From Fuscovulum blasticum DSM 2131 (lineage in GTDB: Bacteria; Pseudomonadota; Alphaproteobacteria; Rhodobacterales; Rhodobacteraceae), in contig NZ_PZKE01000005.1 in NCBI RefSeq assembly GCF_003034965.1, positions 1 to 64,000 of the forward strand: a stretch of 64,000 bases of DNA. The letters run 5' to 3'. Position numbers and translations under genes: made by a program. The first letter of the stretch is position 1; each line of letters starts with the position of its first letter. The notes beneath the pieces were generated by a model that ran no database searches, was not told the origin of the DNA, and was given only the letters and a program-made list of their open reading frames with translations. Below are positions 49,873 to 57,112 of this stretch, piece by piece.

Positions 49873-51321
49873 ATGCCCGTGCGCCCCCATCCCGGCCTTG
49901 AGATCGACGGCTTCACCCTGGGTGAAAAGCTGCACACCGGCGGCTTTGCAACGATCTGGGAAGCAACCCACGCCAAGTATCGCACGCCCATGGTGATGAA
50001 GGTGCCAACCATCATGGACGGTTATGACGGGCCAACCATCGTGGGCTTCGAGATCGAGCAGATGATCATGCCGCGCCTGACCGGCCCGCATGTGCCCCGC
50101 GTGATGGGGATCGGCGATTTCGAGGTGATGCCCTATATCGTGACCGAGCGGATCGAAGGCGAAAGCTTCCTCAAGGTGTTCCAGAAGGCACCGCTGCCGC
50201 TGTCCGATGTGCTGGAGATTGCCGCCCGCATGGTGGATGCGGTGGCCGACCTGCACCGCCAGCATGTCATCCATCTGGACCTGAAGCCCGAGAATTTCCT
50301 GCAACGCCCGACCGGCGAGATGGTGATCGTCGATTACGGCCTGTCGCGGCACGACCAGTTGCCCGACCTTCTGGCCGAGGAATTCACCATTCCGATGGGC
50401 ACCTATCCCTATATCGCGCCGGAACAATACCTGCGCTGCCGCGACGACCCGCGGTCAGACCTGTTCGCGCTGGGGGCCATGCTTTACGCGCTGGCCACCG
50501 GCAAGAACCCCTGGGGCACGCCGGAAACCCTGCGCGGCGTGCGCAAGCGGCTGTGGCGCGATCCGGTGCCGCCCCGTGCGATCCGGCCGGAAATTCCCGA
50601 ATGGCTGCAGGAAATCATCATGCGCGCGCTGGTGGTTGATCCGATGCGCCGCACCCAGACGGCGGCGCAGATGGCCTTTGACCTGACGCATCCCCAGCAG
50701 GTGAAGCTGACCGCGCGGGCGCACAAGCTGAAGCAGGACAGCCTGCTGACGGTGTTCGACCGCTGGCGGGTGATGCGCAAGATCCGCCAGTTCAAGGCGC
50801 CGGATTCGGTGGCCTCGCAACTGGCCTCGGTGCCGATCATCGCGGTGGCCGTGGACCTGTCGCCCGAGGGCGAAAAGCTGTCATCCGTGCTGCGGTCGGC
50901 GGTGAAGCGGATGCTGCTGATCGAACCGGACGCCCGCATCGCCTGCGTCAACGTCATCAAGACGGCGCGGATCGGCATTGATCAGGGCACCGACGATCAG
51001 GGCAACAACATCCATGTGATGCGGCTGGTGCAGTTGAAACACTGGGCGGAAGAGATCGAACTGCCCGACGACCGGCTGACCTTCACCATTCTGGAAGGCA
51101 GCGATCCGGGGCAGGCGATCCTGGATTATGCCACCGCGAACCATGTGGACCACATCATGATGGGGGCGCGGGGCCATTCCACGACGCGGCGCTATCTGGG
51201 GTCGGTGTCGGCGCATGTGGTGGCCGAGGCGCATTGTTCGGTCACGGTGATCCGGCTGCCCGAGCGGCGCGAGGACCGTGCGCCGGCCGAGGCCGAAGGG
51301 GCAAGCAAGGCGGCGGAATAG
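49873..51321 (+). CDS. Ser/Thr protein kinase fused to a universal-stress-protein domain
   Basis: A 482-aa cytoplasmic protein. The kinase domain (about 10-280) has a glycine loop GEKLHTGGFA, Lys43 (VMKV), Glu60, a catalytic HLDLKPEN (Asp136, Lys138, Asn141) in place of HRD, and DYG (Asp154) in place of DFG; GTYPYIAPEQ marks the activation segment. After a basic linker (about 285-318) a Usp domain (about 322-470) ends in GARGHSTTRRYLGSVS, the ATP-binding Usp signature. All catalytic residues are present, so activity is expected. No transmembrane sensor domain is present. A Glu/Ala-rich tail closes it. Confidence 0.88.
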   Translation: MPVRPHPGLEIDGFTLGEKLHTGGFATIWEATHAKYRTPMVMKVPTIMDGYDGPTIVGFEIEQMIMPRLTGPHVPRVMGIGDFEVMPYIVTERIEGESFLKVFQKAPLPLSDVLEIAARMVDAVADLHRQHVIHLDLKPENFLQRPTGEMVIVDYGLSRHDQLPDLLAEEFTIPMGTYPYIAPEQYLRCRDDPRSDLFALGAMLYALATGKNPWGTPETLRGVRKRLWRDPVPPRAIRPEIPEWLQEIIMRALVVDPMRRTQTAAQMAFDLTHPQQVKLTARAHKLKQDSLLTVFDRWRVMRKIRQFKAPDSVASQLASVPIIAVAVDLSPEGEKLSSVLRSAVKRMLLIEPDARIACVNVIKTARIGIDQGTDDQGNNIHVMRLVQLKHWAEEIELPDDRLTFTILEGSDPGQAILDYATANHVDHIMMGARGHSTTRRYLGSVSAHVVAEAHCSVTVIRLPERREDRAPAEAEGASKAAE

Positions 51322-51336
51322 CGCCGGGCTCAAGGA

Positions 51337-51370
51337 AAAGGGGCTGCGCCATGGCTGGCACAGCCCCTTT
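51337..51370. terminator. Bidirectional terminator between the kinase and entericidin-like genes
   Basis: AAAGGGGCTG/CAGCCCCTTT (51337-51346/51361-51370), 14-nt loop, between convergent genes. On the minus strand it is followed by TCC after four T. Confidence 0.78.
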
Positions 51371-51390
51371 GTCACGCGCCGGAGGCGGGT

Positions 51391-51510
51391 TCAGCCGAAC
51401 CAGCCCTGCACGGTGCGGGCGCCGCCCGACACGTCATCCCCGACGCCGGCGATGGTGTTGCAGCCTTGAAGGGCGGCCAGAAGCGCCCCCAGAAGTATGA
51501 TCTTTTTCAT
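51391..51510 (-). CDS. Entericidin-like small lipoprotein
   Basis: A 39-aa lipoprotein with a basic N-terminus (MKKIILLGALLAALQGC), lipobox LQGC with lipidated Cys17, and an entericidin-type tail NTIAGVGDDVSGGA. A relaxed AGGCAAGAG stretch precedes the start. Entericidins are small envelope lipoproteins with stress or toxin-antidote roles; here no second copy is visible. It is 24 bases downstream of the peptide-binding protein gene on the same strand and may be part of its transcript. Confidence 0.82.
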   Translation of the reverse strand: MKKIILLGALLAALQGCNTIAGVGDDVSGGARTVQGWFG

Positions 51511-51534
51511 GCTCTTGCCTGCCGTTTGTTGTTT

Positions 51535-53349
51535 TCAGTCCTGATACCACCAGATGTCGGGCTGGAATCCGATCCAGTCGCCATAGAGCGGGATGCGGTC
51601 GGGGAATCTGAGTTCCTTCCGATGCGCGATCCGAGCCTTGTCAGCATACCAGATCGGAATCACGTATCTACCCGTTGTCAACACACGATCCAGCGCCTGT
51701 GTCGCCGCTGCAAATTCGGCCGGGTCCGAGGCCTTGACCATATCGGCGATCATCGCCTCGGCGGCGGGGCTGTTCATCCCCATCCAGTTGCGGGTGCCCG
51801 GTTCCGTCACCCCGGCCGACCCCCAGTACAGCGTCTGTTCGTTGCCGGGGCTGAGAGACAGCGAGCGTATGTAATGCGTCATGTCGAAGTCATACTTCGT
51901 CATACGTTCCTTCATCTGCGCGCTGTCCAGCATGGTGACGGTCGCACTGATGCCAAGCGCCTTGAGCGACTCGATATAGATCGCCGCGATCGAGGCCATT
52001 TCGTCCTGTCCGACGGTCAGCACGATGTCGAAGGCGAAGGGCTGGCCTGCGGCGTTGCGCAGGATGCCATCGTCGCCCACGGCCCAGCCCGCCTCTTCCA
52101 GAAGGGCGGTGGCCTTGCGGATGTTGCGGCGGTTGGAACGGTCAGTGGCCACCGGCAGGGCATAGCCGTCCAGCGCGCCGGGAAGAAGCTGGTCCCTGAA
52201 CGGCGCCAGCAGGTCCGCCACGCGGCCTTCGGCGGGTTTGCCGGGCTCCATCGCCAGCGTGCTGTTCGAGAAGTAGCTCTGGATGCGCGGTTCGGTGCCG
52301 CCGGTGATGGTCTGGTTGATGAATTCGAAGTTGAAGGCCAGGATCAGCGCCTCGCGCACGCGCCAGTCGGCAAAGATGGGGCGCCGGGTGTTGAACACCA
52401 GCCCCTCGATGCCCGAGGGCCGCTTGTGCGGGATTTCCGATTTCACCACATCACCCGACTGCACCGCCGGGAAGCTGTAGTTCGACAGCCATTTCGCGGC
52501 ATTGCCTTCGCGGTAAGTGCTGAGCGCACCGGCCTTGAACGCCTCGAAGATCGCCTGCGAATTGGCGAAGTATTCGTGGCGGATCTCGTCAAAGTTCCAT
52601 TGGCCCCGGTTGAAGGGCAGATCCTTGCCCCACCAGTCTGGGTTGCGGCGGAAGCTGATGAAGACGCCGGGTTCCATCTTGTCCACCACATAGGGGCCTG
52701 AACCAATGGGGGCCTCGAAGGTGGTGGCCTCGAAATCCTTGCCCTGCCACTGGGCCTTTTTCAGGATCGGGCGCAGGCCCAGGATCAGCGGCAGTTCGCG
52801 GTCTTCGGTGTTGAAGGTGAACCTGACGCTGCGCGGCCCGGTCTGTTCGACCGAGGCGACCTTTTTCCAGGCGGCGTGGTAGCGCGGGTTTCCGAAGGTG
52901 CCCAGCGTCTCCATCGACCAGATGACATCCTCGACCGTGACCGGGCTGCCGTCCGAGAATCGGGCTTCTTCACGAAGGGTAAATTCTGCGTAACTGCGGG
53001 CCTCGTCCGTGCTGACCGATTCGGCCAGCAGGCCATAAAGCGAGAACGGCTCGTCATAGTTCCGGCCCATCAGCGTCTCGACCACATAGGTCGAAACGCC
53101 GGTCGCGGGCTGGCCTGCGGTGATGAACGGGTTGAGCGTGTCGAAGGTGCCGGACTGGCCGAAGACGATGCGGCCACCCTTGGGGGCATCGGGGTTCACC
53201 TGGGGCAGGGACACAAAATCCGGGGGCAGCGCGGGTTCGCCATACATAGCGATGGCGTGTCTGGGTTCGGCCTGCACGGCGCTTGCCGCAAGCGACAGCA
53301 TCAGGGCGGCGGCAAGGGTCTGCAACCTCGCGTAGATGTGACGGACCAT
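51535..53349 (-). CDS. Periplasmic peptide-type ABC solute-binding protein (SBP_bac_5, YejA-like)
   Basis: A 604-aa secreted binding protein. The signal peptide covers residues 1-27 (RLQTLAAALMLSLAASAVQA) and the mature start AEPRHAIAMYGEPALPPDFVSL fits the YejA/microcin-C-uptake branch. SBP_bac_5 features include DTLNPFI, the FSDGSPVTVEDVIWSMETL segment and the C-terminal IPIWYADKARIA. No ABC permease or ATPase genes adjoin it, so it is an orphan here. ATG 53349 lies about 34 bases below the predicted transcription start. Confidence 0.9.
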   Translation of the reverse strand: MVRHIYARLQTLAAALMLSLAASAVQAEPRHAIAMYGEPALPPDFVSLPQVNPDAPKGGRIVFGQSGTFDTLNPFITAGQPATGVSTYVVETLMGRNYDEPFSLYGLLAESVSTDEARSYAEFTLREEARFSDGSPVTVEDVIWSMETLGTFGNPRYHAAWKKVASVEQTGPRSVRFTFNTEDRELPLILGLRPILKKAQWQGKDFEATTFEAPIGSGPYVVDKMEPGVFISFRRNPDWWGKDLPFNRGQWNFDEIRHEYFANSQAIFEAFKAGALSTYREGNAAKWLSNYSFPAVQSGDVVKSEIPHKRPSGIEGLVFNTRRPIFADWRVREALILAFNFEFINQTITGGTEPRIQSYFSNSTLAMEPGKPAEGRVADLLAPFRDQLLPGALDGYALPVATDRSNRRNIRKATALLEEAGWAVGDDGILRNAAGQPFAFDIVLTVGQDEMASIAAIYIESLKALGISATVTMLDSAQMKERMTKYDFDMTHYIRSLSLSPGNEQTLYWGSAGVTEPGTRNWMGMNSPAAEAMIADMVKASDPAEFAAATQALDRVLTTGRYVIPIWYADKARIAHRKELRFPDRIPLYGDWIGFQPDIWWYQD

Positions 53350-53389
53350 CTTCGACGGTATCCCTTCGGCTTGGCTTCGATTTGCGGCC

Positions 53390-53418
53390 ACCCTAAGCGG
53401 CGTCCCGTGCCTTTTCAA
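53390..53418 (-). promoter_or_regulatory. Predicted sigma70 promoter of the peptide-binding protein gene
   Basis: On the minus strand: TTGAAA (53413-53418), a 17-bp spacer, TAGGGT (53390-53395). It stands back to back with the promoter at 53428-53456. Confidence 0.6.
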
Positions 53419-53427
53419 ACTTTTAGC

Positions 53428-53456
53428 TTGGCCATCGGCGGCGGGGGGACTATATA
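53428..53456 (+). promoter_or_regulatory. Predicted sigma70 promoter of a short transcript
   Basis: TTGGCC (53428-53433), a 17-bp spacer, TATATA (53451-53456). Near consensus in both elements and spacing, and unusual for this GC-rich DNA. The -35 boxes of this and the divergent promoter are 9 bases apart. Confidence 0.68.
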
Positions 53457-53462
53457 GAACTT

Positions 53463-53538
53463 ACTGCTCGATAGGTTTCTTGCCTGTATGAAACCTGCCT
53501 CAACGACTGAACGCCGGCCTAGCGCCGGCGTTTTTTTT
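53463..53538 (+). ncRNA. Candidate small RNA (about 76 nt) or attenuated leader
   Basis: From the predicted start near 53463 the transcript folds into hairpin 1, AGGTTTC/GAAACCT (53473-53479/53490-53496) with a 10-nt loop, an unpaired stretch 53497-53509, and terminator hairpin 2 ending in eight T. No ribosome site precedes the ATG at 53488 inside it, and that frame does not end before the terminator. bdhA begins 83 bases further on with its own AGAAGGG ribosome site, so the unit is either a free-standing sRNA or an attenuator in the bdhA leader. No family is recognised. Confidence 0.58.
53510..53538 (+). terminator. Strong terminator without an upstream annotated gene
   Basis: AACGCCGGC/GCCGGCGTT (53510-53518/53524-53532), loop CTAGC, with eight T (53531-53538). 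It lies on the plus strand only 54 bases after the promoter at 53428-53456, with the nearest plus-strand gene upstream being the kinase that already has its own terminator. Confidence 0.93.
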
Positions 53539-53620
53539 GGCCCGGTCCCCCTGCGCTTTGTGCTGTCATTCCCGAACCCCGGGTGTAAGTTTGCCGCAGT
53601 TGCAGCATGGGAGAAGGGTC

Positions 53621-54394
53621 ATGGACCTTAAGGGAAAGCGTGCCATCGTCACCGGGTCGAACTCGGGTATCGGGCTGGGCGTGGCCGAGGAACTGGCCCG
53701 CGCCGGGGCCGATGTGGTGCTGAACAGCTTCACCGACAACGACGCCGATCACGCCCTTGCGAGCGACATGTCGGCCCGATTCGGGGTGACGGTCCGCTAC
53801 ATCCGCGCCGACCTGTCCAAGGCCGAAGACGCGCGCGCGCTGGTCGAACAGGCCGGCGGCTGCGACATCCTGGTGAACAATGCCGGCATCCAGCATGTCG
53901 CCCCGGTCGAGGACTTCCCGGTCGAGCAATGGAACCGCATCCTTGCGATCAACCTGTCCTCGGCCTTCCACACCTCGGCCGTCGCGCTGCCGGGGATGCG
54001 GGCCAGGGGATGGGGCCGGATCATCAACATCGCCTCGGCGCATGGGCTGACCGCCAGCCCGTTCAAATCGGCCTATGTGGCGGCCAAGCATGGCGTGGTC
54101 GGGCTGACCAAGACGGTGGCGCTGGAAACCGCGGGGCAGGGCATCACCTGCAACGCGATCTGTCCGGGCTATGTGCTGACCCCGCTGGTCGAGGCGCAGA
54201 TCCCCGACACGATGAAACAATACAACATGGACCGTGAGACGGTGATCCGCGAGGTCATGCTGCTGCGCCAGCCGTCGCGCCAGTTTGCCACCACCGAACA
54301 GATCGGCGGCACGGCGGTCTGGCTGTCCTCGCCCTATGCCGATCAGGTGACGGGCACCACGATTTCGGTCGATGGCGGCTGGACGGCGCTGTGA
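53621..54394 (+). CDS. bdhA: 3-hydroxybutyrate dehydrogenase (SDR family)
   Basis: A 257-aa short-chain dehydrogenase that oxidises 3-hydroxybutyrate to acetoacetate during polyhydroxybutyrate use. TGSNSGIG (11-18), NNAG and the catalytic SerTyrLys (IASAHG, SAYVAAKHG) are present, as are the FKSAYVAAKHGVVGLTKT helix and ICPGYVLTPLVEAQI segment typical of BdhA. AGAAGGG precedes ATG 53621. The patatin gene follows 28 bases downstream. Confidence 0.92.
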   Translation: MDLKGKRAIVTGSNSGIGLGVAEELARAGADVVLNSFTDNDADHALASDMSARFGVTVRYIRADLSKAEDARALVEQAGGCDILVNNAGIQHVAPVEDFPVEQWNRILAINLSSAFHTSAVALPGMRARGWGRIINIASAHGLTASPFKSAYVAAKHGVVGLTKTVALETAGQGITCNAICPGYVLTPLVEAQIPDTMKQYNMDRETVIREVMLLRQPSRQFATTEQIGGTAVWLSSPYADQVTGTTISVDGGWTAL

Positions 54395-54422
54395 GGCGGG
54401 GTCTGGCGACGCGGGGGGCGGA

Positions 54423-55436
54423 ATGGCGCGTGTAAGTCTGGCGCTGCAGGGCGGCGGGGCGCATGGGGCCTTTACCTGGGGCGTGCTGGACCGCCTGCTT
54501 GAGGAAGACAGCCTTGAGATCGCGGCGGTCTCGGGCACCTCGGCCGGGGCGCTGAACGGTGCCGCGCTGAAGGCCGGGCTGGTGGCGGGCGGGCGTGAAG
54601 CCGCCCGCAAGCGGCTGCGCAAGCTGTGGGAGGATGTTGCCGACGTGGGCGATCTGCGGATGATCCCCTGGCTGCAACCCTTTGCGCCGGTGATGCAATA
54701 CTGGCAGGACATGGCCGAAGCCCTGTTGCCGGTCAGCCCGCAGGGCATCGCGGCGCAGTTCTATTCGCCCTACGCCTGGGGCGGGGCCTGGTCGAACCCG
54801 CTGGAACCGATCGTGCGCGATCTGGATTTCACCCACATCTGCGCCGAGACCGAGCCGCGTCTGTTCATCGGTGCCACCAATCTTCGCACCGGCAAGGCGC
54901 GGGTGTTCGCCGGCCAGGACATCTCGCCCGAGGCGCTGATGGCTTCGGCCTGTATTCCGACGGTGTTCCAGGCGGTCGAGATCGACGGCGAGGCCTATTG
55001 GGATGGCGGATTCGCCGGAAACCCCTCGCTCTGGCCGCTGTATGATCGCCATCTGCCGGACGATCTGCTGATCGTACAGGTCAACCCGATGCGGCGCGAC
55101 GCGGTGCCGGACACGCCGCTGGAAATCCAGAACCGGATGAACGAGATCAGCTTCAACGCCTCGCTCATGTCAGAGCTGCGGGCGGTGGGGTTCGTCAAGC
55201 GGCTGATCGCGCAGGGGCATATTGCGAAAGGCCAGATGAAGGACTTGCGGGTCCATATCATTGCCGACGATCCGCTGATGAACGACCTTTCGGCCACGAC
55301 CAAGCTGCAACCGTCCGAACATATCGTGACGCGGCTGTTCGAGGCCGGGCGCAGCGCGGCAGAGGCGTTCCTGGCCACCTGCGACGGCGATCTTGAAAAG
55401 GCGGTGCCGGTCGATCTGGCGAAGGTCTATAGCTGA
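54423..55436 (+). CDS. Patatin-like phospholipase
   Basis: A 337-aa lipid acyl hydrolase with the catalytic dyad: oxyanion hole GGGAHG (10-15), Ser40 in GTSAG and the Asp in WDGGF. It acts on acyl esters in the cytoplasm or at the membrane. GGGGGGCGG precedes ATG 54423. Its position behind bdhA is recurrent in Rhodobacterales as I recall and suggests a lipid or polyhydroxybutyrate link, which the sequence alone does not prove. Confidence 0.88.
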   Translation: MARVSLALQGGGAHGAFTWGVLDRLLEEDSLEIAAVSGTSAGALNGAALKAGLVAGGREAARKRLRKLWEDVADVGDLRMIPWLQPFAPVMQYWQDMAEALLPVSPQGIAAQFYSPYAWGGAWSNPLEPIVRDLDFTHICAETEPRLFIGATNLRTGKARVFAGQDISPEALMASACIPTVFQAVEIDGEAYWDGGFAGNPSLWPLYDRHLPDDLLIVQVNPMRRDAVPDTPLEIQNRMNEISFNASLMSELRAVGFVKRLIAQGHIAKGQMKDLRVHIIADDPLMNDLSATTKLQPSEHIVTRLFEAGRSAAEAFLATCDGDLEKAVPVDLAKVYS

Positions 55437-55440
55437 CGGG

Positions 55441-56118
55441 TCAGCGCGGTTCCTTGGGCAGCGGATAGACCAGCCCGCCCGACACGATCAGCTTGGCGGC
55501 ATCCTCGACCTTCATGTCGAGGATGACCAGCTTGCTGGTGGGAACGAACAGCAGCATCCCGCTGGTGAAGGGGGTCAGGCCGACGAAGACCGAGGACATC
55601 TCTTCGCCATTGTCGGCCAGCCGGTCGGCCAGTTCGCCCTTGGGCCGGGTCGAGATGAACCCCAGCGCCCAGCTTCCGGGGCGGGGAAATTCGACCAGGC
55701 AGACCTTGTCGAAACTTTGTTCCTTCTTGTTGAAGAAGGTCTCGGCCACCTGCTTGATCGCGCCATAGACCGAACGCACGATCGGCGTGCGGTCCACCAG
55801 ATTCTCGCCGGTGCGGATGATCGACCGGCCGATCAGGCCCTTGGCCATCCAGCCGATGATCACCGTGGCGAACAGGAACACCAGCACGCCGACACCGCGC
55901 ACCGGGAATTCGTATTCCGGGCCGAACCAGCGCCCGATCAGGGCATCGGGCTGATAGGCGGCGGGGATGAGCGGCAGGATCCAGCCGTCTAACCAACCGA
56001 TGAACGCCCAGACGATGTAGATCGTCAGGCCGATGGGCAAGACCACCACAAGCCCGGTCAGGAAACTGGCGCGAAGCCCGGCCAGAAGGCCGCGGCGGGG
56101 GGGATGGGGTTCGGTCAT
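55441..56118 (-). CDS. DUF502 membrane protein
   Basis: A 225-aa inner-membrane protein with two N-terminal helices (about 17-45 and 75-96) and a soluble C-terminal domain. The LRASFLTGLVVVLPIGLTIYIV segment, PIVRSVYGAIKQV and GFISTRP are the DUF502 signature. ATG 56118 gives the usual N-terminus. Function unknown. Convergent with the patatin gene (4 bases apart). Confidence 0.9.
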   Translation of the reverse strand: MTEPHPPRRGLLAGLRASFLTGLVVVLPIGLTIYIVWAFIGWLDGWILPLIPAAYQPDALIGRWFGPEYEFPVRGVGVLVFLFATVIIGWMAKGLIGRSIIRTGENLVDRTPIVRSVYGAIKQVAETFFNKKEQSFDKVCLVEFPRPGSWALGFISTRPKGELADRLADNGEEMSSVFVGLTPFTSGMLLFVPTSKLVILDMKVEDAAKLIVSGGLVYPLPKEPR

Positions 56119-56194
56119 TGGGGCACCTGCATGGGCCCTAAATAGGCCGCAGGCCCCGGTCCGCGCAATGCCGCGCTGCCGAAAATCTGGCCGT

Positions 56195-57112
56195 TCACGA
56201 CGCTTTGGCCAATTCCGCGGCAATCGCGGCGGCCAGCCGGGCATTCGACAGCACCAGCGCGATGTTCGCCTTCAGCGACCGGCCTTCGGTCCGCTCGAAA
56301 ATCCGCTGTAACAGGAAGGGTGTGACGGCCTTGGCGGCGATGCCCTGCGCGGCGGCCTCGGCCAGCGCGGCCTCGACATGGGGCATGATTTCTGCGCGGG
56401 GGATTTCGGCTTCAACCGGAATGGGGTTGGCAACCAGTTGGCCGCCCGGCAGGCCCAGAACACAGCGCAGGCGGTGTGCGGCGGCGATCTCGGCGGCGCT
56501 GTCCATCCGAAGGGGCGCCTTCAGACCCGAGACGCGCGACCAGAAGGCGGGAAAGTCATCCTGCCCGAAAGCGATGACCGGCACGCCATGGGTTTCCAGC
56601 ACCTCAAGCGTCTTTGGCAGATCGAGAATGGCCTTGGCCCCGGCGGCAACCACCGTGACCGGCGTCTGCGCCAGTTCCAGAAGGTCGGCGGAAATGTCGA
56701 AACTGTCTTCGGCACCGCGATGCACCCCGCCGATGCCGCCGGTGGCAAAGACCGAAATCCCCGCCAGCCGGGCGCAGATCATGGTGGCGGCCACCGTGGT
56801 TGCGCCGGTGGCGCCGCTGGCCAGGCAGGCGGCAATGTCGGCGCGGCTGAGCTTGGCCACATTCTGCGCCTGACCCAACTGGTCCAGCGTGGCATCGTCC
56901 AGCCCGGCATGTATGCGGCCGCCGATCACCGCCATGGTGGCCGGCACCGCCCCGGCGGCGCGCACCTCGGCCTCAACCGCGCGGGCGGTTTCCACGTTCT
57001 GCGGCCAGGGCATCCCATGGGTGATGATGGTGGATTCCAGCGCCACCAGCGGCGCGCCGGTTTCCCGGGCGCGCAGCACTTCGGCCGAGCAGGTGAGGGG
57101 CAGGGTCGTCAT
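56195..57112 (-). CDS. psuG: Pseudouridine-5'-phosphate glycosidase
   Basis: A 305-aa enzyme that splits pseudouridine 5'-phosphate into uracil and ribose 5-phosphate. VALESTIITHGMPWPQN, VFATGGIGGVHRG and GLPGGQLVANPIP are strong family motifs. The ATG at 57112 overlaps the kinase stop by ATGA, so both are translated together. Confidence 0.96.
   Translation of the reverse strand: MTTLPLTCSAEVLRARETGAPLVALESTIITHGMPWPQNVETARAVEAEVRAAGAVPATMAVIGGRIHAGLDDATLDQLGQAQNVAKLSRADIAACLASGATGATTVAATMICARLAGISVFATGGIGGVHRGAEDSFDISADLLELAQTPVTVVAAGAKAILDLPKTLEVLETHGVPVIAFGQDDFPAFWSRVSGLKAPLRMDSAAEIAAAHRLRCVLGLPGGQLVANPIPVEAEIPRAEIMPHVEAALAEAAAQGIAAKAVTPFLLQRIFERTEGRSLKANIALVLSNARLAAAIAAELAKAS

Follow-up and report, generated by a model that had tools for sequence, protein, structure and literature searches.

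A near-invariant small RNA of the Rhodobacteraceae with complementarity to the mraZ/dcw leader and its terminated product UpsM

UpsM (RSs0682) is a terminated mraZ leader, a leader-derived RNA that stands at the head of the division operon and for which lengths of 206 and 130 nt have been published. It is described as the most abundant sRNA of Rhodobacter sphaeroides, making up about 60% of the Hfq-bound sRNA, and is reportedly restricted to one family, the Rhodobacteraceae (PMC5089854), and an RNase E cut in it has been placed at genome position 694,720 (PMC6238624). The stress-dependent cutting of UpsM has been ascribed to StsR, a 72-nt sRNA of R. sphaeroides formerly called RSs0827, together with RpoHI/HII, and the passages concerned make no mention of the sRNA studied here (PMC8307010, PMC8625941, PMC5089854). 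A northern probe sequence for StsR has been published (PMC11354728).

The locus considered here lies in a window of 64,000 nucleotides (the whole stretch of DNA analysed) from Fuscovulum blasticum. An earlier note had claimed a promoter, a 7-bp hairpin with a 10-nt loop and a terminator followed by eight T for an unannotated transcription unit, and each of these was found where the note had placed it, as was a divergent promoter 9 bases away. The features of the locus are as follows.

51535-53349, minus strand: gene for an orphan ABC-transporter substrate-binding protein (peptide/nickel type), the conserved divergent neighbour, with an inferred ATG start
53390-53395, minus strand: -10 element TAGGGT of the divergent promoter, 17 bp after TTGAAA
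53413-53418, minus strand: -35 element TTGAAA of the divergent promoter (peptide-binding-protein gene), 9 bases from the forward -35 element
53428-53433, plus strand: -35 element TTGGCC of the sRNA gene, its TTG kept at -35 to -33 in the set of 145 loci
53451-53456, plus strand: -10 element TATATA of the sRNA gene (family consensus TATAAA)
53463-53538, plus strand: sRNA gene, 76 nt including T8, with +1 inferred from the onset of conservation and the promoter spacing
53464-53470, plus strand: 5' tail CUGCUCG (nt 2-8), complementary to mraZ leader site 2 (CGAGCAG)
53473-53479, plus strand: hairpin 5' arm AGGUUUC, from fold and covariation analysis
53480-53489, plus strand: 10-nt hairpin loop TTGCCTGTAT, seen in the sequence
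53480-53498, plus strand: loop UUGCCUGUAU with the 3' arm and two further bases (nt 18-36), the predicted pairing region for mraZ leader site 1
53490-53496, plus strand: hairpin 3' arm GAAACCU, from fold and covariation analysis
53499-53509, plus strand: linker, kept up to nt 40 (53502) and variable beyond
53510-53532, plus strand: intrinsic terminator hairpin with 9-bp stem arms at 53510-53518 and 53524-53532, compensatory changes in 8 of 9 pairs
53531-53538, plus strand: T8 tract (U tail), seen in the sequence
53621-54394, plus strand: bdhA, 3-hydroxybutyrate dehydrogenase, a common but not constant neighbour

Computation gives the anatomy of a short independent unit that starts with the A at 53463 and whose product, much as had been proposed, is a non-coding RNA some 76 nt long, and transcription from its own promoter in F. 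blasticum is to be expected. That promoter (TTGGCC and TATATA separated by a 17-bp spacer) is present, but its description as near-consensus was overstated, a stricter sigma-70 rule calling 0 sites in 50000-57000. Counting the first core base as +1, the bases T/T/G at -35 to -33 are conserved in 100/91/97% of 145 loci; for T/A/T at -12 to -10 the figures are 99/99/96%. This TTG/TAT spacing is compatible with RpoHI/RpoHII and also with the housekeeping sigma factor. The 4 terminator-like sites of 50000-57000 are no excess over the 3.7 expected from shuffles, and the sRNA terminator is the only one of the four followed by eight T. The statement that the upstream plus-strand gene is already terminated could not be confirmed, the scan having called no plus-strand terminator after 51321; between that position and the sRNA there are about 2.1 kb, mostly occupied by the opposite-strand gene. 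The upstream gene itself (49873-51321, plus strand) encodes a PknB-like Ser/Thr protein kinase with a match to a universal-stress-protein model at its C-terminus, an unusual fusion. The segment 53460-53537 folds with a z-score of -3.45 (0/200 shuffles as good) and the longer segment 53455-53545 with one of -2.43 (3/200 shuffles as good), the lowest-energy fold of the latter having a competing first hairpin about equal in stability to the one described. A small ORF was considered and rejected, in agreement with the earlier view that no open frame fits, and a peptide is unlikely: over the first five codons of an ATG frame within the sRNA (MKPAS...) synonymous changes are absent, and beyond them the 145 copies yield 57 different readings.

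The distribution of the element was established in several sets of genomes, of which the least biased for conservation consists of family members found by BLASTN alone. With a query of 118 bases the element was found in 36/36 genomes of the family and in 0/24 from other families (60 genomes in all), and in the 36 nt 1-40 are identical in 34, one loop base differing in the other two (nt 26 in G029, locus L307; nt 19 in G027, locus L309). BLAST with the 76-nt RNA detected it in 383 of the 393 Rhodobacteraceae genomes searched, including 344 of the 346 of high quality; weaker hits within the family, e.g. in G425 (E 2.9e-7), mean that further variants of the sRNA occur. There are two matches in ten of the 383 genomes (G166, G209, G217, G288, G305, G322, G340, G378, G387 and G405), and the second copy could differ in seed or role. 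A larger set was assembled from 30 of the 36 BLAST hits and 118 loci among the matches listed from an exact 30-mer scan, giving 148 loci in 145 distinct neighbourhoods; three were left out as incomplete and 145 analysed. In these nt 1-40 are identical in 145/145, a figure to which the 118 pattern-selected loci contribute free evidence from nt 1-7 and 38-40 only, and free variation begins at nt 41.

An alignment of 54 of the 148 copies showed the first helix to be invariant and the terminator stem to covary, with two-sided changes in 8 of its 9 pairs, and over the whole structure there were 58 cells with two-sided changes, a value reached in 0/500 shuffles, compared with 15.6 expected. The sRNA is hence composed of a near-invariant business end and a terminator constrained in structure alone. 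Promoter bases, core and terminator covariation together are the decisive evidence against a chance arrangement. In a covariance search, a step that had been suggested in the earlier note, a model named R1 was run against a class-wide sample of 241 genomes, the matches listed including four genomes of the same family at 102.5-106.5 bits; matches outside the family in eight genomes of the sample scored 25.8-32.1 bits and are presumed to be chance resemblances of terminators. A phage origin was rejected, the exact hairpin 22-mer being absent from a viral contig collection and phage records giving no match to the sRNA. Four Paracoccus records that carry the sRNA are classed as plasmids (1.5-2.2 Mb). 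Judged by its distribution the sRNA belongs, to all appearances, to the core genome of the Rhodobacteraceae, and some 40 nearly unchanging RNA bases across a whole family are unusual and point to a basic function.

The arrangement with the divergent gene is also widespread. The box TCAAACTTTTAGCTTGG upstream of the sRNA, which contains both back-to-back -35 elements, is exact in 80/145 loci, and the reverse promoter pattern TTGANN-N16-18-TANNNT occurs in 100/144 loci compared with 3/144 after one shuffle of each. The fetched stretches, some of them short, contain the peptide-binding-protein gene in 136/148 loci and bdhA in 116/148. At three loci (L038, L056 and L068, from one uncultured Paracoccaceae and two uncultured alphaproteobacterial assemblies) the sRNA adjoins DUF502/PsuG genes and no peptide-binding-protein gene was found; here the inter-promoter box is decayed and the sRNA core intact. 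It had been suggested that the RNA might regulate its neighbours, and control of the two adjoining genes by base-pairing was rejected, the longest exact complement to the side of the substrate-binding protein being 6.40 compared with 6.45 in shuffles (143 loci) and that to the downstream neighbour 6.37 compared with 6.42 (139 loci).

The loop and linker had been put forward as possible seed regions, and both stand as candidates. The strongest target found, which was absent from the candidates of the earlier note, is the mraZ/dcw leader, chosen because of the published StsR-UpsM pair of sRNAs. It holds an exact complement of the sRNA loop and 3' arm (site 1), which measures at least 12 nt (12-18) in 20/20 leaders found by DNA similarity (19 and one further), and a second complement, CGAGCAG, to nt 2-8 (site 2) starts 46-53 nt downstream of site 1 in all 20. 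Among family mraZ loci found independently by way of the MraZ protein family, site 1 of at least 12 nt is present in 17/18, the miss being G020, in which the sRNA core is intact; site 2 is absent from the leaders of G013, G016 and G020. The two sets overlap, and their union comprises 23 leaders, 22 of them with site 1 and 20 with site 2. The leader of G013 (L164, L228) is of a diverged UpsM type that has lost site 2 and kept an exact site 1 of 18 nt. The specificity of the match is likewise a computed result: mraZ loci outside the family have complements of at most 9 nt (12/12), and of 20,000 random 250-nt segments drawn from the neighbourhoods of the sRNA genes none reached 12 nt, the maximum being 11. 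In its own genome the 12-mer TTCATACAGGCA occurs at three places. One is in the leader (G000:C21:28148-28159), and the other two are antisense matches, one to the sRNA gene itself and one to a long open frame.

For the own-genome pair, site 1 has a calculated hybrid energy of -31.3 kcal/mol with opening costs of 5.9 (leader) and 9.1 (RNA) kcal/mol, and site 2 one of -12.8 with costs of 0.5 and 0.9 kcal/mol, so that the modelled energies favour pairing after opening costs; in UpsM, site 1 is partly structured (opening about 5-6 kcal/mol). The leader sites vary around TTCATACAGGC and are less conserved than the sRNA core, and since the core is the more invariant of the two, UpsM alone is insufficient to account for it, and there must be other targets as well or a constraint from a protein. 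Additional partners beyond UpsM are accordingly likely, and two pattern searches, both shallow (4 and 8 genomes), produced no convincing second target. Recurring sites L279 and L282 were rejected as targets because they fall in a protein-coding motif of a helicase-like frame, and L255 and L266 because they are antisense to a shared frame. The sequence TTGAGGCAGG, complementary to the sRNA linker, is found at G000:C2:52320-52329 (L254), some 50 nt upstream of an ORF that begins MRCPFCG and that we take to be nrdR-like; no frame similar to this ORF was found among the matches of the other three genomes searched. Before and over an rpoE-like gene of the own genome there are sRNA matches of 7 nt only.

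The published coordinates for R. sphaeroides allow the predicted duplexes to be placed on UpsM. Genome G087 was taken as strain 2.4.1; the published SorY 5' end (1,632,642) falls on a match to the SorX family at 1,632,636-1,632,725 in it, and the published RNase E site falls inside its UpsM, at nt 77 by the published lengths. The sRNA homologue lies on the minus strand of chromosome 1 at 1,443,996-1,444,071, flanked as it is in the window, and is predicted to be an RNA of 72-76 nt with its 5' end at ACUGCUCG. Site 1 covers UpsM nt 46-63 (12 nt exact and 5 more after a mismatch) and site 2 nt 99-105, and the cut sits 14 nt past the first predicted duplex and before the second. Because the cut lies between the sites, binding of the sRNA should change UpsM cutting or read-through, or else UpsM should act as a sponge for the sRNA. 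The same kind of test applied to StsR recovers as its longest exact match to UpsM 11 nt at UpsM nt 5-15, and so serves as a positive control.

The reading that we consider probable is that 53463-53538 encodes a trans-acting core-genome sRNA, which probably uses Hfq and whose main partner is most likely the mraZ/dcw leader together with UpsM. Two general traits of Hfq-dependent trans-acting sRNAs are present, the one in the sequence (an own promoter and an intrinsic terminator with a U tail), the other as a prediction (a seed that is conserved and exposed and has its complement in an RNA encoded elsewhere). The sRNA would be transcribed from a promoter placed back to back with that of the orphan peptide-binding protein; the exposed loop would be the likely nucleation point of a pairing that spreads along the 3' arm, and the 5' tail, which is free, would pair at the second place in the leader. 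Both complementary sites would be available on the mraZ/dcw leader and on the terminated UpsM, about 48 nt apart from start to start, and binding in the cell would be predicted to alter UpsM cutting or the read-through of the leader into the division genes, with a presumed effect on those genes that may go in either direction, as the sRNA may promote or block the cutting by RNase E; conversely, the very abundant UpsM could soak up the sRNA. The evidence makes the sRNA a probable second RNA input, and a widely conserved one, to UpsM and the division operon. If true, a further conserved partner of this kind would change the StsR-only picture of the control of division by RNA, and the prediction is open to direct experiment in R. 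sphaeroides. An extended form of this reading, which we think unlikely, is that of a family-wide division switch in which the sRNA would clamp UpsM, and likewise the dcw leader during its synthesis, at one site on either side of the RNase E cut, acting with or against StsR to set cutting, termination and read-through, and would be the older and conserved arm of a control by two sRNAs that is coupled through its promoter to peptide uptake.

It is conceivable, if somewhat doubtful, that the relationship runs the other way, with UpsM a sponge that inactivates the sRNA in exponential phase and releases it on cutting under stress or in stationary phase, the key targets being other mRNAs and not the division operon. 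The reported abundance of UpsM among Hfq-bound sRNA (PMC5089854) would suit such a role, and a core more invariant than the UpsM sites suggests several targets, but the pattern searches described above, shallow as they were, yielded no convincing other target. That the complementarity is instead a functionless relic of an inverted copy of a fragment of the sRNA gene is very unlikely: site 1 is indeed exactly reverse-complementary to up to 18 nt of the hairpin, but it has been kept in 22/23 leaders while the leader around it diverged, G013 and G016 have lost site 2 only, and in R. sphaeroides it stands just before the RNase E cut.

Two further explanations concern the identity of the unit itself. 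The position of bdhA, next on the same strand and found in most of the fetched loci, would suit an attenuator in the leader of that gene, or its 5' UTR, but this reading appears highly improbable. A strong terminator closes the unit, with 82 bases still to go to the ATG of bdhA, and since the hairpin is invariant and the terminator stem varies independently of it, a conserved antiterminator pairing between the two cannot be accommodated; neither such an antiterminator nor a constant position before bdhA was found. In L031, L077, L079, L094, L104, L119 and L123 the sRNA remains beside the peptide-binding-protein gene with bdhA 1.0-2.3 kb off, and bdhA was not found in the fetched stretch of e.g. 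L016, L025 and L027 (about 1.6 kb downstream in each), in which the sRNA is present. Since the sRNA stays in place when bdhA is displaced, it is not a bdhA leader. An ortholog of StsR might also be suspected from the complementarity to UpsM, from the similar length (about 72-76 nt) and from a TTG/TAT promoter of the kind described for RpoHI/HII, yet this identity was rejected and can be given practically no credence, for the published probe, taken as printed in PMC11354728, matches G087 exactly at 858,073, in an unrelated sequence 586 kb from the sRNA that forms a separate unit ending in a T8 terminator, and the probe target aligns with the sRNA at best with 12 mismatches in 20. The preferred reading of an sRNA distinct from StsR, with the mraZ/dcw leader and UpsM as its main partner, is the one retained here.

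Whether the sRNA already carries a name was also considered. Interpolation of RSs numbers between RSs0682 (694.7 kb), RSs1624 (5' end 1,724,505) and SorX/RSs2461 (2,598 kb) puts it near ordinal 1367 of R. sphaeroides, and the R. sphaeroides RNA-seq list of 2009 may well contain it under a number. RSs1368, a designation reportedly used in the 2009 paper, is a guess only; a full-text literature search found no mention of it. Among the matches listed from open-licence main texts there was no description of the sRNA or of a second partner of UpsM. The 'intergenic 134' of Paracoccus denitrificans might be this sRNA (PMC5107571).

Comparison with described systems sets the RNA apart from each of them. 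No Rfam family reaches its threshold on the sRNA stretch. SorX (RF02784), which has the lowest E-value among the sub-threshold matches (0.0017), shares the layout of hairpin, linker and terminator, but membership was rejected at 22.8 bits compared with a gathering threshold of 46.6, and the SorX gene itself lies elsewhere in G087, at 2,598,225. MmgR/suhB (RF00519) is likewise an alphaproteobacterial sRNA of about 77 nt, and membership of that family was rejected at 17.5 bits compared with a threshold of 41. GcvB is transcribed divergently to the gene of a regulator, and the GcvB and AbcR sRNAs both regulate ABC-transporter genes; the neighbour of the present sRNA is an orphan peptide-binding protein and, unlike those RNAs, it has no enriched complementarity to the adjoining transporter gene. 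UpsM has the same reported restriction to the family (PMC5089854) and is the predicted partner of the sRNA, but it is a 206-nt RNA derived from a leader and shows no kinship to it in sequence. StsR resembles it as a short Rhodobacteraceae sRNA of similar length that is likewise complementary to UpsM and to the dcw leader, but the two are different genes of different sequence and they match different parts of UpsM, StsR with its longest exact match at nt 5-15 and the sRNA described here on both sides of the RNase E cut.
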